Assembly: GCA_030272155.1 (NCBI GenBank)
Contig: CP126196.1
Coordinates: forward strand, 3,968,001-4,032,000
Direction of reading: 5' to 3'
Source of the DNA: Tetradesmus obliquus
Lineage: Eukaryota > Chlorophyta > Chlorophyceae > Sphaeropleales > Scenedesmaceae
Length of the DNA stretch: 64,000 bases
Position 1 is the stretch's first letter; each line of letters starts with the position of its first letter. The notes below the pieces were generated by a model that saw only the letters and a program-made list of their open reading frames with translations, did not search any database and had not been told where the DNA came from. The position numbers and the translations under genes were made by a program. Positions 1 to 58,130 of this stretch are shown here, one piece after another.

Positions 1-3000
1 CTGCTGCTGCTGCTGCTGCGGCTGCTGGTTGGGCAGTGTGAGGTGCGGTAGCTGTGGGACACCTGTCGGCCCCTCTGAAGCTGCGGTAGGTGTGGCGGCA
101 GCTACTTCTGCCTCCAGTGAAGGCAGAAAGGACTCATCTGCTGCTGCCGCCTGGCTGCTGCCCGACGGCCCAGTTGCACCATCGTTGTTGCTGCTGCTGC
201 TGCTGCTGCTGCCGTCAGGGCCTTGACCATTTTCCGCAGCATTGTTGCCGCTGCTGCCGCTACCGCTGCTGCTGCTGCCCCCAGGGCCTGCATTGCCGCC
301 AGCAGCACCGTCCGTTGCATCGTCACTTCTTCTGCCAGCTGCTGGTGGGTCTGCTGCCATGGTTGGCACTGCTGCTCCGTCTATGCCATGCCTCAGGAAA
401 TGCTTGATCACCTGCGGATGGCATCAGCAGCATCAGCAGCAGCAGCAGATACAAGCGGAAGTTGGACGAACAACGGCCCACAGCCCCACATACCTGCAGC
501 ATTTCTGGCTCTGGGCTCTGGGCTGGTTGCAGCTGGTTGCCTGCAACCAAAAAGCCATTGCCAAATCCACCATCCATGGCTGCTTGAACTGTGGCCACCC
601 TCGCAACACCCAGGACTGCATGGGGTGCTGACACACTTGCAAGCTCGGCAAACCATGTCAAAATGACAGACAACCGCACAGCAGGGCCACTCCAACGTCA
701 CTTTGTTCACCCAATAACCACACAAACAACATTGTATTAGGCACATCTGCTTTGGAGTAGCTCCTGATAATATCCAGTGCACAGTGTTTTCAAACACCCT
801 TGATATTTTCTGCCCACCTGCAGCATGGCAGCGTTCATCTGCCCACCCGCCTCCAGCACCCGCCTGCTGCACTCAGCCTGCCGTCACCATCCGGTGTAGC
901 GCTAGCGGCCCACAACAATGAACGGCAGCAGAACTGCAACCCATATACGCTATGGCGGCATTCACAGACCACACGGACCACCGACTCTGTCACAAATGCT
1001 GCTGAAACAAGAGACACTCCCACCTGCAGCATGGCAGCGTTCATCTGCCCGCCAGCCTCCAGCACCCGCCTGCTGCACTCAGCCTGGCCCGCATCCAGCC
1101 TGCCAACATCTTTCAAAGTAGTCCAGATCTTCTGCAGCACCAGTGGCTCATCAAACTCGACATGGAACTGGCTGGCAAGTATGTTGGGCCCCCAGCTCCA
1201 CAGCTCATTTGCAGCTGTGGGGGATGAGGCCAGCAGCACCGCACCGGGCGGCAGCTGCAGCACCTGGCCGTGGTGGTGGTAGGGAGTGAGAGAGGCGGCA
1301 TGTGGGTATGCAAAGCAGTGCAGGCAGTAGGGTTAGTTAAAAGGTGCAGATGACAGAGCAGCATACTAGAATGCGGATGGATGCCAGCTGGAACCCAGCT
1401 CCACAGCTCATTTGGGGCCGTGAGGGATGAAGCCAGCAGCACCGCACCCGGCGGCAGATGCAGCACCTGGTGAAAGGCAGGCAGGTGGTGGCGGAAGAGC
1501 AACGCAGCACGGCAAGTGCGTCTGTTGCAGGCCCAGCTAAACAAACAGCAGTTGACACAGGGGCTGCAGCAGGATGACTGCAACCTTGCTGCTTTGTGCT
1601 GGGGTTCTGCTGGCTCGAATGTTATGACCCCACACTGCAGTTCGCAGCTGAATGATGGTTTGCTGCATTGATGTTGTCACACAAGCATGGATGTTGAGCA
1701 ACATAAATGCTCAGCTATGCTCAGTTACTGTCCTGCCCTCACCTGATCACCATGCGACTCAATCAGCCGGAAGCAGCCGAAACTTGCAGCAGCAGCAGCT
1801 GCGCTACTGCCCGCCACAGCTCCTGTCAACGCTGCATGTACGGCTGCAACACTGTCACTCCCTGCACTGTCATTGTTGCTGTTGTTGTTGTCGGCAGTTG
1901 AAGCAATACTCACACTCTCAAGCACATCCGCAACTGTACCAGCGTCGGTATCATTTGCCTTCTCCGCTGCTGATTGCTGCACTGCATCCGCACCGCTGCT
2001 GCTGCCTGTGGCTCCTGCAGCAGCCACGCTGCTGCTGCCGCCCCGTGCTGCTTCAGCTGCCAGTGCCTGCTGCACTGCAGCCTGCAGCTGGGTGAACTGC
2101 TGTAGCTGCAGAGTTGGCTGGATTTGTTCAATGGTGAGCACAAAGTCCCCGTCAGGGTTTGGGCCCACTGAACCGCCGAGTGCCCGGGCAAGGATCTGCA
2201 GGCGTCACACAAAGGTAGCACAAGGATTGTTTGACATCTGGTTGTAGCTTGGTCAAATCACTCGTTTCAGGGGTAGCCGGCCGCGCTGCACTGACTTTTG
2301 CCCTGTTGACACTGAGCTCTTGGTTACTGCTGCTGTCCCCTGCACCAAAACCCTAGCTGCGCAGAGTACACACCATCACCCTGTGCTACAGCCCGGCTGC
2401 TGCCCTTACAGGTAACACACTACTCCAGAACAAAACAGGATAGGATAGAGGGGGTTACATGCTGTGTGGAACAAACACTCCATCACGAAAACATGCTGTG
2501 TGGAACAAACACTCCATCACGAAAACAGCACGGATCAGCTTATACTTCACAACAGCTAACGCTGCTGCATGGTAGACGAAGGCATGCACCAACCCCCTGC
2601 TGCATGTTTGCTGTAGCTGTACACACGCACCTGACAGCCGAAGCAGCACCCATACATGCGTGTGCCTTGTCCTGCAAGCTTCCTCAGTAGGTCCATCAGC
2701 TGGTCGATCCATTCGTGCTGCTCATAGACGCTGTAGTGGCTGCCTGCAATGATAATGGCATCAAACTGTGCTGCTGCTTCTGCAGTCGGCAGCTCCCCTG
2801 CACAAGCCTGTCGCAACGGCCAAACACGCGGCAGAAGCGCTCGATGCAATAAACATCAAGATATCAATGAGACGCGCGGCTACTTACGGCGATCTGCTAG
2901 CTGCATGGGCAGAACAGGGTAGACAGCAGTAGCACCCCCACCTTGTACAGGGTCCACTCGTCGCCGGGCTCTAACAGTGCTTCCTTCCACAGCTGCAACA

Positions 3001-3153
3001 CCAATAGAGATGACTTATATTAATCATAAGGTCTTAAGACAGAACACTACGAGCAAAAATGAGCCATCAACACACCGATTCAGTGTAGCCCTCCCACTTC
3101 TTAGCATCTTCGCACTCAAAGCAAGCAATTTGACGAACTTTTGAATTTTTCAT
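1..3153 (-). CDS. Gamma-glutamyl-peptidase-like class I glutamine amidotransferase (3' end outside window)
   Basis: Minus-strand gene with exons 3153-3076, 2992-2942, 2807-2631, 2195-1743, 1263-1024 and 411-<1; all junctions are GT/AG and in phase 0. It starts at an ATG reading MKNSKVRQIACFECED. The class I glutaminase nucleophile elbow is GCCFGCQ (Cys about 98), and the His-Glu pair is in ASQFHVEFDEP (about His287, Glu289). ILARALGGSVG and LIESHGDQ are also typical of this fold. In plants this family (GGP) trims gamma-glutamyl residues from glutathione conjugates in the cytosol; other class I amidotransferases with the same fold remain possible. A Gly/Ala/Ser-rich insert of about 90 residues sits before LIESHGDQ. 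After VIKHFLRHGID, where the family normally ends, the frame continues as a low-complexity Gly/Ser/Gln tail off the window. Fold confidence is high; exact substrate is inferred. Confidence 0.85.
815..881 (-). repeat. Ghost copy of the 3' edge of amidotransferase exon 5
   Basis: About 66 bp nearly identical to 1021-1086, including the exon end (..NAAMLQ) and its GTGGG donor. It lies in the intron downstream of the exon it copies, in the same orientation. Confidence 0.85.
1396..1466 (-). repeat. Ghost copy of the 5' edge of amidotransferase exon 5
   Basis: Reads LHLPPGAVLLASSLTAPNEL, against LQLPPGAVLLASSPTAANEL in the real exon at 1263. The acceptor CAG is retained. The copy stops after the Trp-Ser-Trp and lacks the His-Glu catalytic half, so it cannot replace the real exon. 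Confidence 0.85.
2458..2525. repeat. 34-bp perfect tandem repeat, two units
   Basis: Two adjacent identical 34-bp units (2458-2491 and 2492-2525) in the intron between amidotransferase exons 3 and 4. No coding or splice signal is evident in the unit. Confidence 0.9.
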
Positions 3154-3937
3154 GTCCTAAGAAACTTTCACGAAGCTCGTCAGCCTGGCAACGTAGTGAT
3201 CACTGCCACCGCTCAGCCGTATGCGCTCCAGTGTTGATATTTTAGAAGGTCGCAGAAGTCGACTTCCGTATTGGAAACGTGCGACTCACCAGCGGACCCG
3301 GATACCGTCCCCAGCGACAGTTTGTGTTACATTGGATAACTGGTCCGACGGAGGTTGCCCCCAACCGCAGCAGCCCTGCGGTGTAAGAAGCTGCGACAGC
3401 TGTGGCGCTTCCTATGCCATTGCTGCAGAATCATGCCCTGTTCAGCTGTCTGTCGGACTTTTGTCTTGAAAGCAGCAGCAGAGAGCAAACGTTGGCCGGC
3501 ATCGCGCGTGATCGTGTCAACGCATCGTTGCCGCAGCACCTTCCCCAGGTGAAGCAAAGGGAACGGCGTTTGTTTCAATTTGAAATCATCAATCGCATGC
3601 GTATGTTCTTGCTGTACTGTCAGCAGCAGCTGTTCTGCTCACCAGTGCTGGCAAAGAACATCTTGGGAACTCCAGCAACTGTATAGGATTGCAAGCCACT
3701 CAGCATTTTCTGCACTCGTGCTATGACTGGAACGCTGCTTTGCATGGTTTGCTCCACCTTCTGCCTGTGACTCATTTCCTGCTTTGACACTTGGCGGCAG
3801 CGCAGCTTAGGTTGGTGACAGCAGCCACAAGCAGAAGCAGAAGCAGCAGCTGCAGCTGACCTGAATCTGCCACTCAGGAACACCTCCCCGTTCTTATTCA
3901 GCTCCAGCACACAGCTGTCGAGCAAGTTCTCATCAGC
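3154..3937. promoter_or_regulatory. Divergent intergenic region, presumed bidirectional promoter
   Basis: 784 bp between the start codons of two divergently transcribed genes, the amidotransferase (minus) and the CotH-like gene (plus). It must hold both 5' UTRs and core promoters. I saw no clear TATA box or other named element, and the ORFs here show no protein-like sequence. Confidence 0.4.
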
Positions 3938-13768
<9,831 letters not shown>

Positions 13769-13792
13769 CGATGAGGTACATGACTTCCTGGT

Positions 13793-13796
<4 letters not shown>

Positions 13797-13843
<47 letters not shown>

Positions 13844-16525: not shown

Positions 16526-17981
16526 AGTTGGTCAGCAGCAAAGCAGCACCGCAGCACAGCCCAGATGGCAGTGCAGAAGCAGCAGCACCTGCAGCGCTGC
16601 CACACACGCCGCGATTATTAATGGCAGCTACTTGGCGGCCCCATGCAGCATGCTCGTAGGGTGGCCGAACACTATGCGTATGGGCACAGCTGCGTGACAA
16701 ACATGTTAAACAGCCGACTGGTCAGTTTGACAGCTGCACTGCCTCATACACGCCAACAAGGAGCAAACATTTCGCTGCGTTCAGCAGCTGTAACAGGTCG
16801 CCGGCCCATTTGCATTGCTCCTGCATCACACCTGATACCAATACCACTAACGTTGGGAAGGCACGGAACTGCCATGGAAACAAGACTAACCAGCTGTCAC
16901 AGCAGCATCCAATGTTTTGAATGCTCAGATCAGACAGCCATCACTTAAAGGGATGCAGCACTGACAGCATTCAGGACAATGCTCGCCGCGCCAAAAAAGG
17001 TACTGTCATATACACGGTCATATGCTACAAGCAGGCCTGTTCTGCATGTACACTGCAGCGCAAGCTAGGCACGCTCCAGCAGCTGCTGAAAAGCGATCAG
17101 CAGCGACACTAGCTTTCGTCACATGCCTGCTGCTGAACAGCACTGTCATACGCCTGCAGCTGCAGCCCTGAGGCGGTGCTAGGGTGTGCTGTGGTGAGCA
17201 GCTGCAGCTGTAACATGTTACAAGCTGGGCGCTGCAAGCACCCACACACTGGCAAGGCTCTCAGTCCAGAGATCCAGAGCCACAAGCAGGATGTGCAGCA
17301 TGCATGCCATGCAACCGGGCTACGAGTACTCTGCTGCCGTTCCCAATCCAGGGAGCCACAAACAAGACGCGCAGCAGGATTGGTTGCATGCATGCAGCAG
17401 CACGGCGCACGAGTCATACTGCATTGCATGTGTCGTATACGCAGCAGCATAGCATACAATCCAGTACACATGCCACCGCGCGCTGCCTTCACAACCAGAC
17501 ACTCCTCCTGCTGCAAGTGCTGCCAACTGCTGCACCTGCACACGCTACAATCCAGTGTGTTGTGCGGTGTGGCAGCACACTGCCTACAAAATCTCACTTT
17601 TTTCAATGTTCTAGCACAAGAAGCCAAATGCACAGCCACAAAGCATTGTGTGGATATGTCCAGATATTGCATAGCAGACAGCTAGCAGGCAGCTGCATAG
17701 CAGGCAGCTGCAACAGAGCATCTGCAAGCCCATCAGAACCGTCAGCAGCACATGCTGCATGGTTATCAAAACATGGAGCAGGGACGGCGTTTTGGAAACT
17801 TGCCAAGCGCAAGCATGTACAATGCAGGTTTAATGCACGCCGCGCCTCAAACCCCGCAACACCTGCAACATTTGCACAGCAACAAACATAGAGCCTAGGC
17901 TGCGACGTGAAGAACATGGACAGGCGGTGGGCGGCTGTGTAGGCTGCTCGGCGCGCCTGCTGCTGCCATGCGCCCAGGCTG

Positions 17982-20900
17982 CTATGCGCAGAACATGTAC
18001 AGGCTGTTTGCTGCTGCGCAGGCGATGACGTGTGCCTCTGGGTGCCATGCCATGTGCAGCAGCTTACTGCTGCAGTCGACCTGGCCTTCCAGCTGCTGCT
18101 GCTGCTGCTGCTGCTCATTGGCGGCCTGCAGGAACAATGCATAAACAGTAGCAGACATCAGACGGAGCATGGCTTACTAATGCAGCAAATACCTCAGCAG
18201 GCACGTGGCCGACACCAACAACAAACAATTGAAGTCCTCCAAGCTGGCTACAAAGCACACAAGCTTGTGCGCGACAGACCATAAGCACTGCAGCACCTCT
18301 GCAAAAGCATTCAGCCATGGCCTGCTTGTGCATTGCGGTTGCAGCTGCAAGAGCATGTGGCCAACAACTGCACACGATTGGCGTGTTCGAAGCTGGAGAC
18401 AACTGACACCACCCTGCACAAGATGGCCAACAGCTGCACCGCAGTGAGCAGCACTCACGCCTGGGCTGGCTGCGCGCAGCGGCTGCAGGCGGCGCCGCAT
18501 TGGGTCCCTGGAAGCCTCCAGTGCAGTGCCAGATGGCTTGGAGGGCCACGGCAGCACATACTCCTGCGGCTGCTGCTGCTGCATCATGCTGCTGCAGTCA
18601 AACACCTGCAGAAGCAGGACGAGCAGCGCGCGCAGATGTTGCATGAAAGCTGCATGGTTGTGATTCATTGCTGTCTAAAACACAAAGAATCACAGCATTG
18701 ATGGTGCAAAACTGCGGCTGTGTTGATGCAGTGGCGCAGCAAGGTGGCTTGGCAGCTGTAGTATCCACCACACATGTCCAGGTGCATTACAAGCCACTGT
18801 GTACCACTGTCCACACAGCACGAATGCCACCATGAGCAGGGCAGCGCGCAGCTTAGTTGGCGCCTTTTGCTGTGTACCGCTCCACACAGAGCACAGCAGC
18901 ATCTCAAGTGCAGCACCCACCTTGAGGCTGTTGCTGTAGGTGCCGCTGGCACTGGCCAGCATGAGTGTGTACAACAGGTATTCTTGTTACGAAGTTGTAC
19001 ATGCGTGTCGAGAACAAGTCAGCTTGTCAGTTCAGTGCAGTGCCAGATGACTTCACCGCTGCAGCACCTACCTTGAGGCTGTTGCTGTAGGTGCCGCTGG
19101 CGAAGCAGGTGGCGGGGCCGTTCATGCAGCAGCCAAACTTGTCAAAGATGCAGTCGTTCTCATAGAGCTCACTCAGCTGCATCAACACCAGCAGCAGGAG
19201 CAGCAGCAGCAGCAGCAGGCAAAATTGTCAAACATGCATTTGTTCTCGCACAGCTTGCGCAGCTGCAGCAATGCAGGCAGCAGCAGAGCAGCAGCAGGGA
19301 GGGCAGCCCCAGCTGGCTCAGAATAGGTGATGAAGAGACGGCAGCAAGCAGGGTGAATGCGACACAAGCTACACAAGGAACACTGCTGCAGGCCACTTGT
19401 TGATTTCTGTCACATCCTTGGCTTGAAAGAAACAAGAGGATGGTGCATGCAGGCGATACATGCACGCCTTTCAGAAGCAGGAAAGTGGAGACGACCAAAC
19501 GGGATGTCATAAGGCCAAAAATTGACCAAATCAATGACACAGACCACCATAACTAGTCCAGAGTGCTTACTTATCTGTGGCCACACTTCCGCGTGCACTG
19601 CCAGGCTGGCCACTCGTCCTCTTTCCATGGCCAGGCCCCATAGCTTGAGGCTCATGAAGTCAGCACATCCACTATATATATGTTATTTACATGTCTGACA
19701 TCAATTCCATTTACTGAATTACTGAGTGCAGTACTGAATTGGTCACTCACTCATGGCCGCACTTCTTCATGAACTGCCAGGCAATTGGCCGTGCCTCCAT
19801 GGCCAGGTCCCAGCTTTGAGGCTCATGATGGCATTATATTAGCTATAGATGACTTTGTCACTAGCATGTTTCAGGTGTAACTTCTATCTATCTATAGTTA
19901 TTTTGGTCACTCACCTGTGGCCGCACTTCTTTATGCACTGGCAGGCTGGCAATTGGCCGTGCCTCCATGGCCAGGTCCCACAGCTTGAGGCTCATGAATT
20001 GAACACATATATATGTTACTTACATGTCTAAGATCAATTCCAGGTACTGAATTACTGAGTGCAGTAGTGAGGTGGACACTCACCCGTGGCCGCACTTCCT
20101 CGTGCACCGCCAGGCTGGCAATGGGCCGTGCCTCCATGGCCAGGTCCCACAGCTTGAGGCTCATGAAGTCACGAGCCAGCATGTAGCGCCCGCAGGCGCT
20201 GAAGCGCAGGCTGCTGGTGGACGCGATGATCTCGGAGAACCAGTCGCGCCCTGCCTGCGGGAGCAACAACAGCCAAGCACATATGCAGTTGAGGGTGTTT
20301 GTGACATGTTATGTGCAGCCCGCAGCCGCTGAAGCGCAGGCTGTTTGTGGATGCTATAAATTCGGAGAACCAGTCACGCTCCGCCTGCAGGCGCAGAAGA
20401 AAAGCAGTGCTTACTTATCTCATGGTTGCAAGTTGTGACGGTGCTGACCAAAGCTACAGAAAGAATGCATTAGCAATCATCACTCAAGCGCTTGCAATTG
20501 TTCAGACTCTCAGAAGGCTTCAAAAGTCCCGTCTCTCACCTCATTTCAACTTCCTGACACATCTCAGCACTCCTGTTGCACAGCACTGTGCAATCAGACA
20601 TACTGTTGCATGCCGCTACATGGCTTCTGTCTCACCTCAGGTTCCACTTCTTGGTATGTCTTGGCGCTCCTGTCGCACAGCGCGGCACAGCGCAGGTCCC
20701 CTAGCCGTATGCACCCCTTGCTGCTGCTGTAGGCGAACAGGCTGCAGTGGCCGGGGTGGAAGTCAGCACAGGTGATGACCTGCAGAGGAGCGCCACAAGC
20801 GGTCAAAGACAACATAAATGGGTCAAACACAGCAGTTACGAGGCAACGCAATCAAGCCAGCACAACAGCAACCAGAAGTGTTGGCTGTGGGTGCCGTTTG

Positions 20901-24119: not shown

Positions 24120-24493
24120 TTATGAGGATTGATCCTGGAACCAACCGTTAACAGCTCATGCTGACAATCGCAGGAATACGGTCCAAGCCCATTTGGCAAC
24201 CATGCTTCAAGCAGAAAAGCGCTGCACAGATGTTGTTTGATACAACACAGGGACTGCTGCGGCAGCCAGGGTTGCTCACCAAGCCGCGGTTCCCTGCTGG
24301 TGGTAAGCATGGTGCCTGCCGGGCCAGCAGGTCCAGCCCTGTTATATAACAAAATAGGATAACAGCAGCAAGCAGCACGAAAGGACATAGCATCAGTACG
24401 TATGTCGTCGAAGGTTGAATGATGCAGGTTGCATCAGCCACTTACAAAATCCTGGCACATTCAAACCGTACAAGCAGGGCTGAGATATTCCTA

Positions 24494-29269: not shown

Positions 29270-29331
<62 letters not shown>

Positions 29332-34193: not shown

Positions 34194-34256
<63 letters not shown>

Positions 34257-36189: not shown

Positions 36190-37017
36190 ATGGCAGCTTT
36201 AGGCCAAGTGAACAAGTACTTTGAGGAGCTTAGCAACGCCATATCCAGCGGGCAGGGTAAGTAAGCTACAGCAACGTGTAAAACTGTTGGCACATCAGCT
36301 GCAGCATCCATCAGCTATAAGCGCCTCGCAAGCGGATGTCAAATAAACAGCAGCGCGTGTTTCTGCCGCCGCAGCCGCTCGTGTGAAGCCGCTGCTGCGC
36401 CCCGACCACCCCACAGCACAGCAGGCCCTCTTCAACCTGACCTCAGTTAGTACAGCACAGCTGCAAGGCGCAGCAAAGCGCTGGCTAGACCAGCCATGGG
36501 CGAGCATTGCAGCACAGCACCTGCTGGCCCTATCCAAGCGCAGCAGTGGCAGGCCTGACCAGGCATTTGCGCTGTATACAGCAGCAGAAGGGCCTGCGAA
36601 AGGGGCGCTGAATGCGCTTGCAGAGCAGCCGCAGGATTTGTGGGTTGCTGCTGCCATGGAGCAGACTGCGAGTAATGCGGTGGTGCTGGCGAGGGAAGCG
36701 GATGCACAGCTCATGCTGGAAGGTGACAGCAGCAAGGTGCGTTCTTGGGGTCTTTCGTATGATGTCTTGCTGTGGTGTGTCAGGGCAGCTTCTGCAGTTG
36801 ATGCAATGTTACTGGCGAGGGAAGCGGATGCGCAGGTGATGCTGGGAGGTGACAGCAGCAAGGCGAGTGTTGTGTGCAGTAGAGGGGGTCTCAAGGGTCT
36901 AGCAGCAACAAACTGGTGGTGCTCGAAGTAACGTGGCTGTTTCTTTTCAGCAGTGCGCAGCTGTGCACGCACCTGTGCACGCAGCTGTGCAGCTGTGCAC
37001 GCAGCTTGCAGCCTTGT

Positions 37018-37061: not shown

Positions 37062-37690
37062 CGATCACTGCCTGATTCCTCGAACCCAGCTGCAGCTCAC
37101 AGATCCACTGCCTGCTGCTGCCTGCTGCCTGCTTGCTGCTGCTGCTGCTGCTGCTGCAGAGCAAGGCTGTGGGCGGCTTCCTGCAGCAGTGCATCAGCGC
37201 ATTGGGCCCTGCGCGGCGGCCTGAGGAGTCAGCGCGGCGGCGAGGCAACCTGACGCTGCTCATCCTGCTCACAAGGGTAAGTGGCATAAAGTTTCGAGGT
37301 TGGTACCTCTGCTGCTGCTGTCTATCAATGTTGGTGTGGGCGTTGCGTAAGAATCCTGACACTGCCTATCCCGCTGACACGGGTAGGTGGCTAGGGGTGC
37401 TGCTTTGTGCCTCCTGGAAGTGCCACATGCATAAAGCACATGCATTGAGCATGCCCTGGGGCTTTGCGCGGCAGCCTGAGGAGCCAACACGGCGGCGAGG
37501 CAGCCTGACGCTACTCATCCTGCTCACACGGGTAGCTACCTATATGTGGCCTGCAGTCTTGCTTTGTGCCTCTGCTGTGGCGTTTATGTGCCTTTGATTT
37601 TGCATGTGAAGTAACAAGGTACTGCTGGTCCTTACGCCATTGGTAGGGGCTTGGTTGTGTAGCCAGGTGTTTGCTGTGTATTGAGCCTTC

Positions 37691-37742: not shown

Positions 37743-40691
37743 CTGCAGGTGTACATGCGGCTGAACAACGTGCAGGGCTGCAGCCAGGTGCTCAAAAACT
37801 TCAAGCAGAACTACTCGGGCGAGGTGCTGCAGGTGCGGCCTTGTGCTGTGTGCTGTGTCGTGATGTGCTGCGCTGTGCTGCGCTGAGCCGTTCATACCAC
37901 TGAATCGTGCGTCCTTTCATTGCATCGATCCTGCAGCTCTGACTGCAATTTGGCCTGCATCTGTTCGCTCTGCTATAAACAAGCATCAATCAGTTCTATC
38001 ATTTGCCTGAACCCTGCAGAGAGTGCCAGCAGCATACCGCGTGGCTGCTTACTACTACCTGGGCCGCACCGAGCTCAACAGCGACAACATTGCAGGAGGC
38101 ATTCAAATGCTGCAGGTGGGCTGCTGAGCTGATTCCCAGCTATCCTGTTTTTTTCACTTATAGTTGCTGCAATGCTTGCAAGCACAATGCAGCGCTTGTC
38201 CCGGTTGTCATGGGTATGATAATAGACATGCTGATGCTGACATGATGTTGTTGTGTTGATGCTGCAGGCGGCCTTCAAGGAGTGCAAGGCGGACAGCGAG
38301 AACGTGAAGCACATCCTGCGCGCGCTGGTGCCGGTGAGCGGCCAGTACAGTGTTGCACGCTTTGAATTCGTTGTGAACTTTTGTTGCGAGCTTCCTGCAG
38401 TGAAACCCTGCAGCACATCCTACGCGTTCTGGTGCCGGTGAGCGGCCAGTACAGCGTTAAACGCTTTGAATTGCTGATAACCTTTGTCGACAGCTCCCTG
38501 CAGCAAAACCGTGAAGCGCAACCTGCGCGCTCTGATGAGTGACCATCCAGCAGCCTGAAAACATGGCGCGCCCTATTGCATGCCCTATCGTGCTACCCCA
38601 AAAATTTGCCACCTGCCGCACCTGAGTGTGCCGCATGATCAGCGCAGCTGCATGCTTGCTTGTTCTCCAACCAGCTGTCTGCTTTCCTGCCGCTTGGCAC
38701 CACCATGCTGTGTGTATGCCGCAGCTGAAGATGCTGCACGGGGAGCTGCCCACCGTGCTGCTGCTGCAGCGGGTATGAACCTTGGATATACAACTGACCT
38801 GCCTGCACATTTGCACTCCTGCCACAACTGCCGCAGCTGAAGATGCTGCACGGGGAGCTGCCCACCGCACTGCTGCTGCAGCGCCACGCGCTGCAGGAGT
38901 ACGAGCCCTTCCGGGAGGCCATTGCTACCGGGGATGTGGGCCTGTTTGAGCGCAGCATGCAGGCCAACCAGTACCGGCTGATTGCCAACGGCACGTACTT
39001 GCTGCTGGAGAAGCTGCGCTTCAGCGTGTACCGCAGGTGAGCTTTGGAGAGTAGCGGGAAAGAGTGATTTCAGGCAAGCATCAGTCACTAGAAGTGTGAT
39101 GCCAGCAACCCCGTGCTGGAGAAACTGCCTTCAGCGTGTACAGGGGGTTGTGTTGATGTGGAAGAGAGGTGATGGTGGCAGGCGATTTGGGGGAGTGTGG
39201 TCCTGTTTGCGCAGCATGCAGGCCAGCCAGTACCGGCTGATTGTAAACGGCACCTACGTGCTGCTGGAGAAGCTGCGCTTCAGCGTGTACAGGGAGGTGA
39301 GGGGAAGTGAAAACATTGGTGTGGTGTTTGAGGGGACAAAATTGTGAGGTGGACGCTTGCACCTACCTTTACCTGGTGCTAGGGAAGCTGCAGTTCACTC
39401 CTGCTCCCTGCGTGGGGTAATCAACCACACCATTGCGCAAAGGCCACTGTGTGGCGTTCGCCTGCAATGTTTGCCTGCAATGTTTGCATGCAATTATTGT
39501 GAAGCGCTGCGTGGGCGTAGCCAAGCAGCACCCGGGGCGCGACTGGCAGGAGCACCACCTGCACCTGGAGGTGCTGTAACATACAATTACACAAAAATGC
39601 ATTTGTCATTCGACAAAATGTTCCACTCTCTGCAGCCTCCCTTTTAGCATGTGCTGTATGCGCCCGCTACAAAAGATACATGCGTTATTTGCATCGTCGC
39701 ACTGCTTGCAGGCTTGTGAAGCGCTGTGTGGGCATCGCCAAGCAGCACCCGGGGCGCGACTGGCAGGAGCACCACCTGCACCTGGAGGTGGTGCAACAAC
39801 TGTCCACTCCTATGCATGTGTGCTAACAAAGCCATTTCCCGCAACAGACCTCCAGGGTTGTGCTGGTTGCAGCCACCTCAATGAACACGTGCGCTGTTTA
39901 CTTGTGTTCGCGCATGCTGCAGGCTGGTCAAGCGCTGTGTCGGCATTGCCAAGCAGCACCCGGGGCGCGACTGGCAGGAGCACCACCTGCACCTGGAGGT
40001 GGTGCTGGGCGTGCTGCAGCAGCAGGGCGTGCCCACTGACATGGATGAGCTGGAATGCATGCTCAGCAACTGCATCGTGCGCAGGTGAGGTGCACGGTAG
40101 CAGGTGCCGCTGTGCCCTGCTGGGTCAGAAGTAGATGTGTCTGAAGGATGCCGATAAAGCAGCAGAAAGTAAGAAGGCTTTGGAGCCAATGACATGCTCA
40201 TTGCGCAACCACTAACCCATGAACTGGCAATCATCCGCCAACCACCTGCCAAGCGCAAACAGCCGAAAGCTCCCAACCTTGCAGGTACATCGTTGAAGGG
40301 CTACATCAGCACGTGCTTGAGGCTCTGGTGCTGGCCAGACCCTCCAAGCATCATGATTGATCTTGCTTTACGCCTGCTTGCCTTGCTTGCTGCAACCGCC
40401 ATATTGCCGCAGGTACGTGAAGGGCGACATCAGTATCAAGCTCAAAGCTTTGATCAATCAATTACCAAGATGAATTCTTTGGGAAATGACAACGATTAGA
40501 CTGTTGTTGTTGATGTTTGTATTGTTGTATTGTTGTAATATATATTGATATTGTTCATGTGTGCCTGCTGCAGGTACGTGAAGGGCTACATCAGCAACAA
40601 GCTCAAGGTGCTGGTGCTGGCCAAGGACGAGCCCTTCCCGGCACCCTGCGAGGAGTGGTGGAGGGAGCCGCACTTCGTGGGCAGCGCGTGA
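36190..40691 (+). CDS. PCID2: PCI-domain protein PCID2/Thp1 (TREX-2 mRNA export)
   Basis: Nine exons: 36190-36256, 36375-36736, 37160-37276, 37749-37832, 38020-38115, 38268-38333, 38837-39036, 39923-40084, 40574-40691. Phase closes to TGA (423 aa; animal PCID2 is about 400). It starts MAALGQVNKYFEELSNAISS. Family matches include RRRGNLTLLILLTR-VYMRLNN, AYYYLGRTELNSDNI, QEYEPFREAIATGDVGLFER, NGTYLLLEKLRFSVYR, DMDELECMLSNCIV and RYVKGYISNKLKVLVLAKDE. The C-terminal half is the PCI winged-helix domain. PCID2/Thp1 binds Sac3/GANP and DSS1 in TREX-2 at the nuclear pore. A polyQ-like stretch at 37018-37060 lies inside intron 2 and must be spliced out, because its frame does not join exon 3. Nearly every exon has ghost copies. 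Confidence 0.93.
36787..36861 (+). repeat. Ghost copy of the 3' edge of PCID2 exon 2
   Basis: Repeats VLAREADAQLMLEGDSSK as LLAREADAQVMLGGDSSK; the GT donor has mutated to GC. Confidence 0.9.
37459..37530 (+). repeat. Ghost copy of the 3' edge of PCID2 exon 3
   Basis: Reads ARQPEEPTRRRGSLTLLILL followed by TR and GTAGCT, against ARRPEESARRRGNLTLLILL. A smaller remnant lies at about 37346-37384. Confidence 0.9.
38400..38535 (+). repeat. Two ghost copies of the 3' edge of PCID2 exon 6
   Basis: HILRVLVP plus GTGAGC at about 38413-38438, and a weaker VKRNLRALM plus GTGACC at about 38507-38532; the real exon ends at 38333 (HILRALVP). Flanking GGCCAGTACAG(T/C)GTT is repeated as well. Confidence 0.85.
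38725..38772 (+). repeat. Intact ghost copy of the 5' edge of PCID2 exon 7
   Basis: GCAG acceptor, 16 open codons (LKMLHGELPTVLLLQR) and a GTATGA donor. It is nearly identical to the start of the real exon at 38837 and is phase-compatible with splicing, so it could act as a small alternative exon. Confidence 0.85.
39203..39296 (+). repeat. Ghost copy of the 3' half of PCID2 exon 7
   Basis: Repeats SMQANQYRLIANGTYLLLEK as SMQASQYRLIVNGTYVLLEK, followed by LRFSVYR. A short additional remnant lies near 39113-39145. Confidence 0.9.
39495..39788 (+). repeat. Two ghost copies of the 5' half of PCID2 exon 8
   Basis: 39495-39577 and 39711-39788 repeat LVKRCVGIAKQHPGRDWQEH (real exon from 39923). 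Both are open through EHHLHLEV; the second keeps an AG acceptor. Confidence 0.92.
40286..40455 (+). repeat. Two ghost copies of the 5' edge of PCID2 exon 9
   Basis: GCAG|GTACATCG...GGCTACATCAGCA at 40286 and GCAG|GTACGTGAAGGGCGACATC at 40413, copying the real start at 40574 (YVKGYISNKLK). Confidence 0.87.
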
Positions 40692-40740: not shown

Positions 40741-41270
40741 AGCACCTGAGGAGTGGCGGAGGGAGCCGCACTTTGTGGGCAGCGCCTGATGGCACTTGAT
40801 TGCTGCAGCATTCTGTGTGTGAAGCAACGGCCCTTTCCGGCGCCCTGCGAGGAGTGATGGAGGGAGCCGCACTTCGTGGTCAGCGCGTGATGTATCACTT
40901 GATGAAGCACAATGCTTGTTGCGTCATATGAGTGGCGGAGCAGCTGCACTTCTGTTGGCAGGGCTTGAGGAGGGGTGGAGGGAGTTGCATGCGACCCGCA
41001 AAGTGCGCGCTTTGTGGGCAGCGCATAGTATGGCAGGCCACCAGTGAAGGTAGTGGCAAAGGCAGCCGCCAGTTGTGTGCAGCACCTAGTGAAGCTTCCG
41101 GCGCCCTGCGAGAAGAGGTGGTAGGAGCCACACTTGATGGGCAGTGCATGTTGCATCACCCCGTGCATGGCAACGTGTTAAGCAACGCATGAGTGTTGGA
41201 AGCTGCCGCATGTATTGGACAACAGCCAAGGATTGGTGCAAGGAGCCGCCCTTTGTTGCCAGCGCCTGAT
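40741..41270 (+). repeat. Array of five decaying copies of the 3' end of the last PCID2 exon
   Basis: Copies of PCEEWWREPHFVGSA-stop lie at about 40741-40789, 40838-40891, 40968-41027, 41098-41150 and 41223-41270, spacing about 100-130 bp, all downstream of the real stop (40691). The first reads PEEWRREPHFVGSA-stop; the others have indels. Confidence 0.9.
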
Positions 41271-42055
41271 GCATCCATCACCTGCCAGGTGCGCCAGGCT
41301 GGTGCATAGCAAACTGGCAGCAAAAATTTGCACACTCGCAGTCGATGGTGCAAAATGGTGAAGCCAGTGAACAGCTGATCGTGCTTTGAAGAAACAGCGC
41401 ACATCACACATAGCTCAACAGCAGAGGGCGGCAGCAGCGGCAGTACTACGTTTGAAATGCACATGAGGCATGCGATGTACAGGTCCCTGTACTTCACATC
41501 ACATGCTGTACATGTACAGCGGAACAACATGGTCTGACCAGCGAGCAAAGGAAGCCTCACGTTAAACCATGTTTGAGCAAATTTTAAACACAATCACCAC
41601 TACACGTAACACGTGATTTCCTACCGAGGCCAATGAGGGAGCAGCTGTGCCGCTGCTCGCTAAGCGCTATACCTCATGTACATATGCCGAAATGTATCAT
41701 TTATTATCGCACTTAATTATCTCATCGTATAACGTTCGTAATCTCAGGCCAAGAGTGTCCGAGGTTTGTTTCCGCCGGAGGTGGCCTTGAGAAGGTTGCG
41801 CTGAGTGGGCTTCCAGTAGGCTGCAGCCCGGCAGTAGCAGCGCCGGAAAGAGCCGGAGCTCGGCTTGAGTCGCGTTCCCTTTCACTTCAGTTCTCCACCA
41901 TCAAGCAAGCATATTGGTGAAGTAAAAGGCTTCATTGTGAAGCTTCCAGGGATTTTACTCAGCCACAGCTGCGCACGCAGCCACCCAGCCACAGCCGCTG
42001 CCGCCGCGCAGTGCGCATTCTCTCCTGCGTCTGTGCCGCCGCCTCAGCATGCTTA
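41271..42055. other. Convergent interval between PCID2 and VTC
   Basis: No gene recognised. It lies between converging 3' ends and presumably holds their 3' UTRs. A palindrome-like CATGCTGTACATGTACAGC is at about 41503-41521. Confidence 0.45.
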
Positions 42056-45326: not shown

Positions 45327-45377
<51 letters not shown>

Positions 45378-46428: not shown

Positions 46429-46459
<31 letters not shown>

Positions 46460-46646: not shown

Positions 46647-46690
<44 letters not shown>

Positions 46691-46814
46691 AGGGCGCTGC
46701 AGCTGCGCACTCAGCTGAGACGGCCCTAGCCCTGAGCTACGCTGCTGCTGCTGTTGCACCTGCTGCTGCGCCACATCAGGTGACCAATGCACATGGTTGC
46801 CTGTGGTGTTACTT

Positions 46815-46858
<44 letters not shown>

Positions 46859-46950
46859 TGAAATGTATTCGCCCTCCTGTTGGCTACTGCTGCCGAGGAT
46901 GCTGCTGCCATGGCTGTAGCTGAAGCTTGGTGCATTGCCTTGCTGTTGCA

Positions 46951-46985
<35 letters not shown>

Positions 46986-48050: not shown

Positions 48051-48085
<35 letters not shown>

Positions 48086-48890: not shown

Positions 48891-48931
<41 letters not shown>

Positions 48932-51041: not shown

Positions 51042-51061
51042 GGTGCCGCCGCCGCTGCTGC

Positions 51062-51107
<46 letters not shown>

Positions 51108-52521: not shown

Positions 52522-54220
52522 ATGACGGAAACACAGCTGGTTGTGCACATAGATGCAAACGGGCTGTCCTGCAGCACATCTAGCAGCTCGACTTTCGACA
52601 GCCCTGCGGGATCCAAGCGCAACCGAGGACTGCTGGTCTGCTTCCAAGTACGTGACTGCTGATGTGATTGAGCAGCAGCGTAAGTCTGGCTTGGTGCACG
52701 CACTGCGCAGTTGGCGTGCCACGTGCTTGCTGCCCCGCCAGTGCTGGAGTCCGCGTTCAGCCATCTCGCCATTTCAGCGCGATGATGTTGCGCTGTCATC
52801 TTCCACGCACCTGCTTGTATCTAAAAACTTGCTTGCACTTCTTGCAGGATGTCGCGTACAGCATACCAGCCAAGGCTGGTGCAAAGCACACCATCATCAC
52901 AGGCATCACTGGCTACTTCGAGGCCGGCAAGATGACAGCAGTGGTGCGGCCTACGTACAGGTTTCATCTAAAGCATTTGTCAGGCTGCAGTGTGGGTGCT
53001 TGCGCAGTGGCAACAGGGTCCAGGCTAGCAGCTGACAGTAAACAGGACTGCCGTCTGTGCCCCCCGGGGCTTGTGTCCCACACCTCAGTGCTGTTCCTGC
53101 AAGCATCCTGCAAAGTTTCACTGTTTTTTTCCGGCTGCTATCTGGCTGTTGTCACCTTCTGCTGCGCAGATGGGGCCCAGCGGCAGCGGCAAAACCACCT
53201 TCCTGGATGTGTTAGCAGGCCGCAAGAACAGCGGCAGCCTCTCCGGCACCATCCGCTATGGCGGGCTGCCACCCTCGCGCAGCCTGCTGCGCAGAGCCAC
53301 AGGCTATGTTGAGCAGTTTGACACGCTGGTCGACTGCCTCAGCTGCCATGAGATGCTGCTGTACACAGCACAGCTCAAGCGCCCGCGCAGCGAGAGCATT
53401 GCAGCGAAGCAAGCGGCAGTTTCACAGCTGCTGGGCAAGCTTGGCCTTGCTGGGTGTGCTAGCAGCCTGATCGGCAATACCTTAAAGCGCGGGATCAGCG
53501 GCGGCCAGGCCAAGCGGCTAAACATTGGAATCGCACTGATCACAGATCCGCGCGTGCTGTTCCTGGACGAGCCAACCTCGGGATTGGACAGCTTCACAGC
53601 AAACGAGGTCATGCGCGTGGTGGCAGGGCTTGCAGCAGACGGCACCACTATTGCTACAACCATCCACAGCCCGAGCAGCTACTGCTATGGCCTTTTTGAC
53701 AGGCTGCTGCTGCTGCTGGGAGGCAAGCTAGTGTACCTCGGAGGAGCTGGAGAGGATGCGATTGCATACTTCACAGCGACGTGCAGTGCAAGGCAGCCGC
53801 AGGTCGGAGATAACTTGGCAGAGTGGATGCTGGAGGCAGTCACGCAGGCTGGCAGGGACGGCAGCGATGGCAGCTTGGCGCAGGCCTACCACAAGAGCCA
53901 GCAGTACCGGGTGAGCGGCTGTGGCTGGTATTAATACTATGTTGACTGCGCCAAACAAATGGCAGTCAGGACTAGGTGTAGCGGCAATTGCAGCGGCAGC
54001 TTGGCACTTGGGTACCCACAAGGAGCAGTGCACGGTGAGTGACATGCGAACTCTGCAGGATTTGGGCAGATGGCAATGGTGCCAGCCTGGTGGTAGCAAG
54101 CAGAGCTGCAAGCAACACCAGAAGCTGGTGCAACAACAACACGCAGAGCCGGGTGGATGGCTGTGCATTCAGCAAGAAGAAAGAAACTGCGACTGCTGAT
54201 GAACAAGCAATGCAGCTGCA

Positions 54221-54255
<35 letters not shown>

Positions 54256-56906
54256 ACAAGCAATGCTTCCTCTTCTCGGCAGTATTTTATCTCTACTTTC
54301 TGCACCTGCTGCCACAGGCCAACCTGGACCTGATGGTGGTGCTGTGCAAGAGGCAGTTTCAGCGGCTGATGCACAAGCAATGCAAGCAGTGCTGTCTCGT
54401 CTGCACCATGTGTCTCCTTTTCCTGTGCTGCCTGCAGGCCAACCTGGACCAAATGGTAGCATTGTGTGAGGAGCAGCTACAGCGGCGGGCCCGCAGCGCC
54501 ACCTTGCAGGAGCTGTCAGCACTCACAACAGCAGAAGCAGATGCAGCAGCAGCGCTGCAGACAATCAGCAGCAGCAGCAGCGGCAGTGGCAGCGGCAGCA
54601 ACGGCTACCGAGAGTGTGGCTGTGATGATGATGATGACGGGAGGCTGGGCAGCAGCAGCAGCTGCTTGGACTGCAACACGTATGTCACACCAGCCTGGTG
54701 GAGCCTCAAGGTGGGTGTGTCCCAGAGCAGTGTGTGTTGTGTCCCAGCGTGTCACAGTGGGTGTTGCTAGGAGGAAGCTGGGACACACCAGCCTGGTAGA
54801 GCCTCAAGGTGGGTGTGTCCCAGAGCAGTGTGTGTTGTATCCCAGCGTGTCACAGTGTGTGTTGCTAGGAGGAAGCTGGGACACACCAGCCTGGTGGAGC
54901 CTCAAGGTGGGTGTGTCCCACAGCAGTGCGTGATGTGTGTCGGGGTTTCACAGTGTGTGTTGCAGGTAGGCAGCTGGGACACACCAGCCTGGTGGAGCCT
55001 CAAGGTGGGTGTGTCCCAGAGCAATGGCTGCTGACGGCAGCAACAGCTGCAGCTGGCGTCTAAACTGTAGCTTGAATTGTCATTTAAAGCGCCTACAGAA
55101 ACTACGCTGCTGCTGCTGCTGCTGCTGTATGCAGGTGCTGCTGCAGTATCGCACGCTGCGCAACTACCGCACGCCGATGTATGTGCTGCCGCGGCTGCTG
55201 GAGAAGCTGCTGTTTGCTGCGGTGCTGCTGTCGCTGTACTGGGGCAAGGTGCGTTATATACATGAAGTAGGTTCACACTATGACAGGATGATCTGCATGG
55301 TGTGGTACCGCTGCTGCTGGAGATGCTGCTGTTTGCGGCAGTGCCGCCGCCGCTGTACTGGGGCAAAGTGAGCTATGGTGTTACAGCTATCATAGCAGGG
55401 TGTTGACCCTGAAGCTGTGGTACATGTTGCTGACACAGCTGCTGTTTGCGGCGGTGCTGCTGTCACTCTACTGGGGCAAGATAGGTTGCATATCAAACAA
55501 GCTGTAAGTTGACACTGTGCATAACAGGACTACCGTGAATCGAGAGGCTTGCGTGTGCTGCCGTGGCTGCTTGAAAAGCTGCTGTTTGCTGCGGTGCTGC
55601 TGTCGCCCTGTTGGGGCAGGGTGGGTTGCATGCCTGAAAGGCACCAGGTTCACACTGTGCAGAATAGGGTGATCTTTGGCAGTGTGCTGCAGAGGCTGCT
55701 GTTTTAGGCTGTGGTGATGTTATCTGTTTTCCTGCCGTGCAGGGCACAGACTTCAGCACGCTCAACATCCCGGTGCTGTCCAGCCTGCTGTTCCTGATGG
55801 TGCTGGCCCCCAATTGTGCAGCCATGATGTACCTGCCAAGCATCGGCACGGACACACCAAAACAGCACTTTTTAAACCAGAACCCTCAACCCTAAACCAT
55901 GTTGTTGTCCGATTTTCTGCCGTGCAGGGCACAGATTTCAGCACGCTCAACATCCCCGTGCTCTCCAGCCTGCTGTTCCTGACGGTGCTGGCCCCAATCT
56001 GCGCAGCCATGATGTACCTGCCAAGCATTGGCATGGAGCGAGCACTGTATATCCGGGAGCGCAACGACGGCCTGTACCGGCCTGTTACATACCTGTTATT
56101 CAAGCTGTTAGATGAGCTGCTGATGATGGCGCCAGTGACGGCAGGCACGACAGCAGCGGTGTTCTTCGCGTGCAAGCTGCAGGGGAGCTACCTGCTGTTT
56201 TGGTTGGTGCAGTATGCCACACTCGCAAACGGCACAGGTGTGTCAGATGTGCGGGATGTGTTGAACGTGTCACCTGCAACGTGTTTTTCACTGTGCTGGT
56301 GCGGTACGCTATGCTGGCAAATGGTGAAGCGCAAACATGTGTCTGGAAGTGCCCTTTCATTGAAAAATGGTGCGAAGGGCTTGCTGTCTTGGGTGATGTG
56401 TGGGTGCATGACTCTGCACAAGACCGACAATGCTGCAGGGGAGCTACCTGCTGTTCTGGCTGGTGCAGTACGCCACACTCGCAAACGGCACAGGTGCGTC
56501 GAATGTGCCCAAAGCTTGTGCAGTGCCTTGGACACACAATTGCATGCTAGTGCATAGGGCAGCCGCTAGGGCAGCTACCTGCTGTTGTGGCTGATGCAGT
56601 ACGCCACACTCGCAAACGGCACAGGTGCGTTACACTGTAACATGACGTGCTGGAATCTTGAGTAGTGTTGTTTTTGGATTGTCATGACACCTTTTGCATG
56701 CTAGTGCATAGGGCAGCAACCTGCTGTTCTGGCTGGTTTGATTACAGATGCAGGTATCAAATTCAGATAGGTTGGTGTCATCTGCCTGCCACTGAAGTCA
56801 TCTGCCATCAGCTGCTTCGGCACTGGTCGCATCATGCCTGCTTGTGCCAGCTCCTGAAACGGGCCTGCCCAATTGGTGACATGGTGCTGCCATGGCTGCC
56901 TTCAGC

Positions 56907-56951
<45 letters not shown>

Positions 56952-57568
56952 GCTTTCATAACTGCTGCTGCTGCTGCTGCTGCTGCAGCTCTGGCGTACT
57001 TCCTTGCGAGCATCAGCCCCGGGCTGATGGTGGCGATGCCGCTGCTGTCATTCGTGCTCATCGTGAGCCTGGTGTGCTGCGGCTTCATGATCCGCGTGGC
57101 AGTCATGCCGGTGTACTGGTGAGTGCCCTCATAATTAACCAGTACGAAGGCCACAAGCAGTGCCTCTGACAGCCTTGCTGCTGCTGCCACTTGCTGCCAA
57201 ATCAATTGAACAGGTCCTGGGTTATGAGGGCCAACAAGGAGTTACTTGCAGCTGCACATCTGGATGCCCGCACACAGGTCTCACACTTGTTGTCTTTTCA
57301 ATCTGCTGCTGCCGCTGTCTCTTGCTGTTGCAATCGCAGGTCCTGGGCAGTAAAAGCCAACGTGGTGCACTACAGCTGGGGTGCCCTCATGATCAACCAG
57401 TACGAGGGCCACAAGCAGTCCCGCCTGGGCAGCATGAATGTGCTGTCCTACTTTGGCTATGCTGCTGGCGATGCTTGGATGCACCTGGCAATTGTGGTGG
57501 GCTTCTTCTTTGGCTGGTCCTTCCTGACATGGCTGGCCCTGGCCTACGCACGCAATTACAAGCGCTGA
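52522..57568 (+). CDS. ABCG-family half-transporter
   Basis: Eight exons: 52522-52647, 52848-52943, 53170-53910, 54438-54710, 55135-55248, 55928-56237, 56989-57118, 57340-57568. Phase closes to TGA (672 aa). Nucleotide-binding domain: Walker A GPSGSGKTT (about 76-84), signature ISGGQAKRLNIG (about 183), Walker B RVLFLDEPTSGLDS (about 202-215), H-loop TIHSP. It precedes the membrane domain, the reversed order typical of ABCG/White. Membrane segments include LSSLLFLTVLAPICAAMMYL, VTYLLFKLLDELLMMAPVTA, LMVAMPLLSFVLIVSLVCCG and LAIVVGFFFGWSFLTWLALA, with NYKR at the C-terminus. Half-transporters dimerise to export lipids or hydrophobic compounds; the substrate is not predictable. The linker in exon 4 is Ser/Gly/Asp-rich. 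The exon 4 donor is chosen as the first of four tandem copies. Confidence 0.93.
54319..54385 (+). repeat. Ghost copy of the 5' edge of ABCG exon 4
   Basis: CACAG|GCCAACCTGGACCTGATGG reads ANLDLMVVLCKRQFQRLMHK, against ANLDQMVALCEEQLQRRARS in the real exon at 54438. Confidence 0.9.
54687..55023 (+). repeat. 98-bp tandem repeat spanning the ABCG exon 4 donor
   Basis: Units start at 54687, 54785, 54883 and 54981 (exact 98-bp spacing; last unit partial). Each holds the exon end (PAWWSLK codons) followed by GTGGGTGTGTCCCA, so four equivalent donors precede one acceptor at 55135. Units are about 95% identical by eye. Confidence 0.93.
55303..55622 (+). repeat. Three ghost copies of the 3' edge of ABCG exon 5
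   Basis: About 55303-55370, 55431-55482 and 55548-55620 repeat LLEKLLFAAVLLSLYWGK. Donors are GTGAGC, ATAGGT (lost) and GTGGGT. Confidence 0.9.
55742..55856 (+). repeat. Ghost copy of the 5' third of ABCG exon 6
   Basis: GCAG|GGCACAGACTTCAGCACG... copies GTDFSTLNIPVLSSLLFLTV; a one-base insertion after LAPN breaks the frame. The real exon starts at 55928. Confidence 0.92.
56284..56745 (+). repeat. Four ghost copies of the 3' edge of ABCG exon 6
   Basis: About 56284-56325, 56436-56492, 56564-56624 and 56710-56747 repeat SYLLFWLVQYATLANGT. The two best keep GTGCGT donors; the last has an in-frame TGA. Confidence 0.88.
57128..57262 (+). repeat. Ghost fragments of ABCG exon 8 within the preceding intron
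   Basis: 57128-57158 repeats the MINQYEGHKQ codons; 57213-57262 repeats CAG|GTCCTGGG... (SWAVKANVV). The real exon starts at 57340. Confidence 0.8.
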
Positions 57569-57654
57569 GCTGCAGCACAATGGCGCACTTCTCCTCAAGT
57601 GTGTGACAAGTGCAACAGCAGCAGTGCCAGCAGCGGTTCCAGCATTGTCCTTTT

Positions 57655-58130
57655 TGGCATGGCTGGGCCTGCCTACGCACGCAACTACAAGCGCTGAGCG
57701 GGACAGGGCGTTGGCGCAGATCTAGTCAAGTGTATGACAGGTGCAACAGCAGCAGTACCAGCAGCGGTTGCGGCACTGGTGCTGGGCTAGGTGTGCAACT
57801 ACAAGCGCTGAGCAGTTGACGCCAATGTCGTGCTGGTGCAAACGCGGCAGCTGTAGCCGTGTTGCTGGTACTGGCGCTGGCTTATGCGCGCAACAACACC
57901 TGATGGGCTGGACTGCAGTGCGGCGGCCACCACAGCTTACGAATCAGCACTTCAGCAGCAGCATACGCAACTGTGATGGCGCTGGCATGCGTGCGCTGGC
58001 TGGTCCGTCCTGCAAGTACAAGCGCTATGTTGAATTGTGATATTCACAATGATACGGTGAAGGTCACACCAAGAGCAGCGGCAGCAGTGACGGCTGTGGT
58101 GCTACTCGCGCAACTGCAAGCGCCAATAGG
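57655..58130 (+). repeat. Array of decaying copies of the 3' end of the last ABCG exon
   Basis: Copies of LALAYARNYKR-stop occur at about 57655-57698, 57768-57812, 57868-57903, 57986-58030 and 58098-58129 (spacing about 110 bp), with a GTGCAACAGCAGCAGT(G/A)CCAGCAG block repeated between the first ones. All lie after the stop (57568). Confidence 0.87.

Follow-up and report, generated by a model that had tools for sequence, protein, structure and literature searches.

Internal gene duplications are reportedly a source of introns in which the duplicated segments enter the gene structure, and tandem exon duplication with alternative splicing is said to leave duplicated exon sequence in an intron. 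The window analysed here, a 64-kb stretch of the green alga Tetradesmus obliquus genome (contig CP126196.1, positions 3,968,001 to 4,032,000), contains many short local copies of exon edges lying in the adjacent intron or just past the stop codon. These copies are like internal duplications in supplying intron sequence, but the exon-edge fragments, where tested, are missing from the mRNA; they are like tandem exon duplications in placing duplicated exon sequence in an intron, but the families examined each copy a single edge, and the gene tested shows no use of the copies. Tandem duplication is treated as an accepted source of introns in the cited passages of PMC3443670. In potato, the cited passages on an RdRp gene (PMC4974935) describe a local direct duplication across an intron–exon boundary that made a new intron in a single event, and also mention an 83-bp tandem duplication inside an intron. 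The present copies share with that case the local direct duplication crossing an intron–exon boundary. In contrast to the potato intron, which according to the same passages is new and used, the inner copies here are skipped in the one transcript-derived protein checked, and in three genes the duplication has recurred at 23 edges out of 56, some of them stop codons. The introners covered by the cited part of PMC9860276 are similar in the mass generation of intron sequence, whereas no dispersed family was found here. For small tandem duplications at staggered breaks a fill-in mechanism with CST–Pol alpha-primase has been worked out, and its products are, in the passages cited, likewise direct, local, short and element-free; those insertions are below 100 bp, and these passages draw no link to exon edges (PMC8355091). 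Searches of an open-access library, to which subscription papers mostly do not belong, found no lineage with such debris at a large share of its exon edges. Boundary-crossing duplication is known as a single event; here it recurs at many edges, with an edge bias that is unexplained.

The window was compared with itself by blastn after period-3 repeats had been filtered. This gave 95 direct and 6 inverted pairs, of which 93 and 4, respectively, lay less than 1 kb apart. The 93 direct pairs (at least 42 bits) cover 20.4% of the window. Three order-3 Markov shuffles of the window yielded no direct pair in any case and 0, 0 and 2 inverted pairs; these shuffles, together with the rotations given below, speak against simple chance as the source of the repeats. 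The partial copies near exon ends reported in a preliminary description of this DNA are therefore real, with the exon edges checked in three modelled genes, and its statement that all copies are direct is nearly correct, a few inverted pairs being present. Similar results were obtained with 25 sampled 10-kb stretches of the genome (designated by L-numbers), where direct pairs less than 1 kb apart occurred in 19 stretches and numbered 168 against 4 inverted ones; this ratio counts for tandem duplication. No direct repeat within 1 kb was found at this threshold in the other six (L004, L005, L006, L010, L020 and L031). Both GC extremes of the sample, L005 (65%) and L006 (49%), are among these repeat-free stretches; the GC content of the window is mostly 52–60%.

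The distances between paired copies were mostly 90–380 bp, in agreement with the 100–350 bp proposed before, with a mode at 110–140 bp (near 125 bp) and a second peak at 240–270 bp (near 250 bp), as expected of tandem arrays that have lost members. Satellite-like longer arrays were seen at L019 1–5670 (units of about 274–345 bp) and L007 1–940 (191 bp); L019 and the part of L007 below position 950 were excluded from the spacing distribution, from the count of young tandem pairs and from the whole-core clustering test. The identities of the copies span 60–100% across the 17 contigs (3.1–11.1 Mb each, 104.7 Mb in total) of the assembly searched. A genome-wide search with an exon of the PCID2-like gene described below returned the exon, two nearby copies and nothing else; two spacers and one flank taken from two-copy pairs were likewise placed nowhere else, in a search that under-reports close repeats (a query from inside a local array also returned a single place). 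These results speak against dispersed elements; ordinary transposition had already been doubted in the preliminary description. A few arrays fit the description of a minisatellite (that found by Tandem Repeats Finder (TRF) at 54686, 98 bp x 3.4, is one); most families have few, diverged members. Among other repeats of the window, CAG/CTG runs are plentiful (long ones at 4276–4373, 9909–10053 and 34194–34304, and many more), and a scan for tandem repeats listed 78 rows with overlaps counted, period 3 being common among them. An exon-sized block at 61161–61302 is repeated at 62124–62271, at a distance of 963 bp and with 95% identity, and is larger and farther apart than the edge copies.

In-frame spliced models with 28 exons and 56 edges were built for three genes, a convenience sample from one window on which the edge counts and the outer-copy rule given below rest:

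17982..24092, minus strand: PP2A regulatory subunit B55-like gene, 12 exons modelled with upstream exons left out, GT..AG introns, protein 97% to P0019
36190..40691, plus strand: PCID2/THP1-like gene, 9 exons, in-frame model complete from ATG to stop
52848..57568, plus strand: ABC half-transporter gene, presumably of the ABCG type, 7 exons modelled with the start left out, Pfam ABC_tran and ABC2_membrane

All modelled introns of the three genes have GT and AG ends between the modelled exons. The B55-like protein, in which Pfam finds WD40 repeats, is 97% identical to P0019 of T. obliquus (848 aa); by tblastn P0019 covers the B55-like gene and upstream exons, reaching about 29439. The region 17982–29439 may hold a B55-like gene with a long N-terminal extension, or two genes fused in the T. 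obliquus annotation. The exon choice of the annotated protein, itself a gene prediction, is the same as in our model. The PCID2-like model agrees with the protein P0001 at 422 of 423 residues; its only Pfam match is to TPR, below the cut-off, and the family name rests on named relatives. Because the longest contig behind P0001 (2159 bp) is too short for a 4.5-kb gene, we took P0001 as spliced RNA; its source label 'lgn' presumably denotes assembled public reads. It comes from a very close relative or another strain, not necessarily the strain sequenced here. Pfam finds ABC transporter domains in the ABCG protein. By its proteins the window sits next to T. obliquus (97%, the B55-like protein) and Scenedesmus sp. 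NREL 46B-D3 (82% and 90%).

At a lower threshold the three genes contained 54 direct and 6 inverted pairs, against shuffle means per gene of 0.0 direct and 0.2–0.6 inverted. Direct pairs that overlap an exon edge numbered 32, compared with 18.8 ± 3.6 under rotation, and none of 2000 rotations reached 32. The junction excess over random placement, which the preliminary description had proposed as a check, was thus found. Pairs confined to introns were fewer than under rotation (12 vs 23.1), and those confined to exons numbered 10 (12.2 under rotation). Copies were present at 23 of the 56 edges, against 16.6 ± 2.9 expected from rotation (P 0.03). When the pairs were grouped into 28 copy families, 23 lay at an edge, two had an exon-interior source and three contained no exon. 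With the two exon-interior families left out, the edge share of 23/26 compares with 39% under uniform tolerated placement (P 3e-7; P 5e-4 after the weight of edges was doubled for slower decay or detection). In the three genes modelled, copies gather at exon edges beyond a simple random model, and part of this excess is expected, since copies remain recognisable for longer when their source exon is constrained. A hand tally assigned 14 edge families to donors or stop codons and nine to acceptors. Copies just past the stop, also reported before, were present in all three genes. Since stop codons carry copies too, the edge of the coding sequence, and not the splice junction, is the common factor, which modifies the earlier proposal that DNA containing splice junctions is duplicated. 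The Rogers model of intron gain by tandem duplication calls for an exon-internal AGGT segment and a new spliced intron; the 23 edge families here overlap an edge that already existed, and the PCID2-like protein P0001 is consistent with the use of outer sites only.

The outer copy was the live one at 23 of 23 edges and in 31 of 31 pair-edge cases, donor and stop copies lying downstream and acceptor copies upstream of it. A need to keep the outer site in use would give this arrangement. Each edge family covers one edge of one exon, and no copy of a whole exon with both splice sites and an open frame was found among them. The copies are absent from the protein P0001, and the transcript of the PCID2-like gene is consistent with the use of outer sites only. 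Splice-like sites have indeed been added, as proposed, but they were not used in this one protein. In PCID2 intron 39037–39922 the donor copies come first and the acceptor copies last. For short pairs (defined below) of at least 90% identity, a count of splice motifs at core ends was informative for donors (24% against 3%); the acceptor motif is too loose for its count to be so. Several exons in the three models end in CAG or AAG and several begin with GT. With such AG|GT-type ends, skipping of a copied junction, or its removal by two-step splicing, could leave the mRNA the same; judged from these sequences, the copies could be tolerated in either way. The copies are listed below.

In the B55-like gene and its upstream part:
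19569..19998, minus strand: three donor-side copies of the end of exon 20084–20254, unit about 169 bp, from self-comparison
20318..20395, minus strand: acceptor-side copy of the start of exon 20084–20254
18909..18950, minus strand: donor-side copy of the end of exon 19072–19176, 41/42 bases
19212..19297, minus strand: acceptor-side copy of the start of exon 19072–19176
20534..20584, minus strand: weak donor-side copy of the end of exon 20636–20779
21049..21144, minus strand: donor-side copy of the end of exon 21223–21435
22983..23048, minus strand: acceptor-side copy of the start of exon 22760–22900
23385..23427, minus strand: weak donor-side copy of the end of exon 23519–23622
23685..23783, minus strand: acceptor-side copy of the start of exon 23519–23622, intron part alignable with indels
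17893..17944, minus strand: copy of the stop-codon end
25027..25222, minus strand: copies of an exon end in the upstream part, live copy near 25308–25354, from self-comparison and P0019 tblastn
26187..26254, minus strand: copy of exon end 26315–26383 in the upstream part, 90%, from self-comparison and P0019 tblastn

In the PCID2-like gene:
36801..36863, plus strand: copy of the last 62 bases of exon 36375–36736
37459..37534, plus strand: donor-side copy of the end of exon 37160–37276
38398..38537, plus strand: donor-side copies of the end of exon 38268–38333, unit 104 bp
38717..38771, plus strand: acceptor-side copy of the start of exon 38837–39036, 96%, sharp borders
39114..39312, plus strand: two donor-side copies of the end of exon 38837–39036
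39497..39794, plus strand: two acceptor-side copies of the start of exon 39923–40084, unit about 215 bp
40280..40445, plus strand: two acceptor-side copies of the start of exon 40574–40691
40748..41275, plus strand: several copies of the stop-codon end, in the 3' flank

In the ABCG gene:
54307..54366, plus strand: acceptor-side copy of the start of exon 54438–54710
54784..55026, plus strand: donor-side copies of the end of exon 54438–54710, 98-bp unit, about 92% identical
55301..55713, plus strand: three donor-side copies of the end of exon 55135–55248
55715..55852, plus strand: acceptor-side copy of the start of exon 55928–56237, 89%
56432..56737, plus strand: donor-side copies of the end of exon 55928–56237
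57647..57813, plus strand: copies of the stop-codon end

Elsewhere in the window:
5550..5860, plus strand: exon end near 5476 copied three times with a 122-bp unit; we take the gene to be CotH/lamin-tail-like
813..880, minus strand: donor-side copy (97%) of exon end 1019–1086, spacer and flank with no other place found in the genome

In the sampled stretches, L028 8894–9712 shows a donor-like and an acceptor-like copy around one intron, in a gene whose motif we read as that of a 3-oxoacyl-ACP synthase.

Recurrent tandem duplication of units of about 125 bp, tolerated when it straddles the edge of a coding block and followed by death of the inner copy, is in our view probably the best explanation of these observations. 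On this view the genome would often undergo tandem duplication of small segments, preferably of about 125 bp. A duplication straddling one coding-block edge (donor, acceptor or stop codon) would leave the protein unchanged, because the outer copy, that is the first donor or stop or the last acceptor, would stay in use. The inner copy would be dead at once and would drift in the intron or 3' flank. Its intron-derived half would be eroded by deletions and indels faster than its exon-derived half, so that the visible remnant would be an exon edge with a few splice-site bases. As to the molecular cause, our guess is strand slippage, or else staggered breaks repaired by fill-in and end-joining.

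Tandem structure was assessed in 240 direct pairs, those of the window and of the first 20 sampled stretches, and a pair was called short when its core spanned less than 0.8 of the distance between the copies. Near-perfect young arrays that include both intron and exon edge were found at L021 (137-bp unit), L017 (129), L016 (244) and window 54686 (98), and for some copies tandem birth is thus directly visible; most, we infer, began as complete tandem duplications. The preferred spacing is alike in short and tandem pairs. The preliminary description had proposed recurrent local tandem duplication, in favour of which stand the direct orientation, the unit of about 125 bp and the young arrays; it is modified in that 173 of the 240 pairs were short and are no longer contiguous or intact tandem at detectable homology. 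On the head-to-tail arrangement of break fill-in products the evidence is divided: 168 of the 172 pairs less than 1 kb apart in the 25 stretches were direct, but these 173 were not contiguous. Aligned in register, the flanks of short pairs were hardly or not at all homologous, even where the cores were 95% identical. Local search detected shifted flank homology at L011 (84%, shift 41 bases), L014 (75%, 6) and window 45955 (74%, 15), and alignable flanks were present in 7 of the 15 nearest short pairs with a core of at least 93%. The earlier claim that each copy includes its donor or acceptor with some intron holds for a part of them, 46% of 28 borders past the edge keeping 15 bases or fewer. 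Decay was proposed to grow with distance from the live exon, and does so in four of six comparable multi-copy arrays and not in the rest; one ghost, as we call a dead copy, of the 10301 array and one flank of the 39923 array were left aside in this comparison. In the B55-like array 19569–20167 three cores are 8–9% apart and the fourth 15–20%, a pattern from which the time order is not fully recoverable. The spacers of this array alternate, one kind being repeated at 13–14% divergence and the other showing no clear relation; over 19577–20167 both spacers measure 87 bp in the first two units.

Differences between ghosts and live exons fell on third positions in 137 of 264 cases (0.519, 95% 0.459–0.578), with a ratio of non-synonymous to silent changes (N/S) of 1.10. 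Between ghosts N/S was 2.08 (54:26), and for changes unique to one ghost 1.62 (26:16), where random mutation predicts 2.57; changes common to two ghosts against the live exon were 1 N to 7 S (simulated, 19 to 16). With N/S among ghosts near random and the shared changes mostly silent, the ghosts evolve almost as dead DNA would, whereas constraint acts on the live exon; this speaks against coding constraint on the copies. Where live exon and NREL strain differ, the live state was found in the copies in 57 comparisons, the NREL state in 5 and another in 14; the comparisons overlap, with several per site, and so are not independent. As the live state prevails, most copies look, from these residues, younger than the split from the NREL strain. 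A few copies match T. obliquus in preference to the live exon, at residue 302 of the B55-like model and, for one copy, at residue 349.

Several results weigh against tandem duplication of this kind as a full account. Neutral tandem duplication was simulated in the three genes with a unit of 125 ± 25 and uniform placement; the live exon was kept under purifying selection, and substitutions, indels and deletions were allowed. The parameters were hand-chosen and mutation was uniform in type. The observed reference comprised 41 pairs, with short to tandem 32:9 (3.6), edge to intron 28:8 (3.5) and the 46% of borders within 15 bases. In 36 runs with uniform placement the edge/intron ratio did not exceed 1.14 and the short/tandem ratio 2.50, and 12–23% of borders lay within 15 bases of the edge. 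This speaks against plain neutral duplication with uniform placement as a full account. Neutral simulation likewise gave an N/S of 2.32 and a third-position share of 0.391, below the observed 0.519; a threefold slower change of ghosts fits (0.521). Alignable flanks were found in only 4 of 29 short pairs with cores of 88–93%, against 11 of 22 simulated, and among young cores (at least 88%) there were 10 intact tandem and 44 nearest short pairs, compared with 81 and 34 when simulated duplication was confined to edges. When exon-derived ghost DNA was slowed to 0.2–0.4x, 39–46% of borders lay within 15 bases; at 0.2x the short/tandem ratio (1.30–3.62) came within reach of that observed, but the edge ratio (0.26–1.82) did not. 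Slower fading of exon-derived DNA would account for part of the edge bias, and the silent-site excess independently points to ghosts changing at about 0.3x the expected rate. This slow change may reflect a difference in rate, copies derived from alleles, or direct copying of exon edges.

The last of these would make the edges of coding sequence hot spots of duplication: a break or template switch tied to transcription or splicing would copy about 60 bp of exon edge into the intron, the block ending at or just past the splice site or stop from birth with no tandem intermediate that includes intron, and introns would be largely dated fossils of their own exons. We regard this as rather unlikely. 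It would explain the edge share of the copy families, which stays significant after edge weight is doubled, and the sharp borders seen at 96–98% core identity (L013 591, L032 6093, window 813 and 38717). Confining simulated duplication to edges reproduced the edge ratio but neither the borders nor the short-to-tandem ratio, which also favours it, as do the near-perfect arrays, about nine of which lie at exon edges and one in an intron by eye, not in a blind count. Against it, complete young tandem arrays do cross edges, short and tandem pairs prefer the same spacing, and several sharp pairs, such as L011, L014 and window 45955, have shifted flank homology; for the last reason we dropped sharp borders as general proof of insertion without a tandem step. 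Unequal exchange between diverged alleles would instead bring in a copy from the other haplotype, with silent-only exon differences at birth and an intron part maybe already unalignable. The pair L016 6882–6997 and 7105–7219, which differs by silent changes and one indel, fits such an origin, and in coding-like cores of 90–95% identity 63% of differences (37/59) were at third positions, falling to 39–40% below 85%. The codon frames outside curated exons were themselves inferred, and worse with age, and in curated exons the trend by identity was weak (24/37 at 90% and above, 29/54 at 85–90%, 66/123 below 85%, by hand tally); exchange of this sort seems to us a distinctly unlikely source.

Gene conversion by the live exon, which would preserve similarity in the exon part of old ghosts as the introns drifted, would account for similar cores beside unrelated flanks, and differences over whole cores of short pairs were clustered (mean z 0.80, n=152, vs -0.06 simulated, n=223). 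In exonic columns, a small set, there was no clustering beyond simulation (z 0.15, n=34, vs 0.12), and conversion should not lower N/S, which was half the neutral value; these two points weakened it as main cause, and we consider it very unlikely. A function of the copies under selection, as alternative exon ends or as regulatory decoys, is more improbable still: several keep a donor-like GT and exon parts fade slowly, but of 81 gaps, counted across exon and intron parts, no more than 10% have a length divisible by three, some copies contain premature stops, N/S between ghosts is near neutral, and all copies are omitted from the near-identical spliced protein in one gene. Misassembly can yield local repeats and introners do create introns, yet assembly error or a mobile intron-making element is hardly credible for copies of 60–100% identity in contigs of 3–11 Mb. 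The two spacers and one flank have no dispersed relative found, and the donor-first, acceptor-last order in PCID2 intron 39037–39922 is unlike that of joined haplotypes and rules against that form of assembly error.

According to the cited part of a 2018 tabulation (PMC5966456), T. obliquus has a mean intron of 462 bp, longer than in the four other green algae tabulated, and a coding share of 15.7%, below that of the same four. Gene finders can take copies such as those described here for exons, which is a warning for annotation. The copies also offer a natural test of how the spliceosome selects the correct donor when several alike ones follow each other at 125 bp, and of a possible tie between duplication and exon edges. 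Since a dead copy records an earlier state of the adjacent live exon, silent and intron rates can be compared inside one gene. If the pattern is genome-wide, much of the intron and 3' flank sequence of this alga would be debris of local duplication, turned over within the age of a genus.

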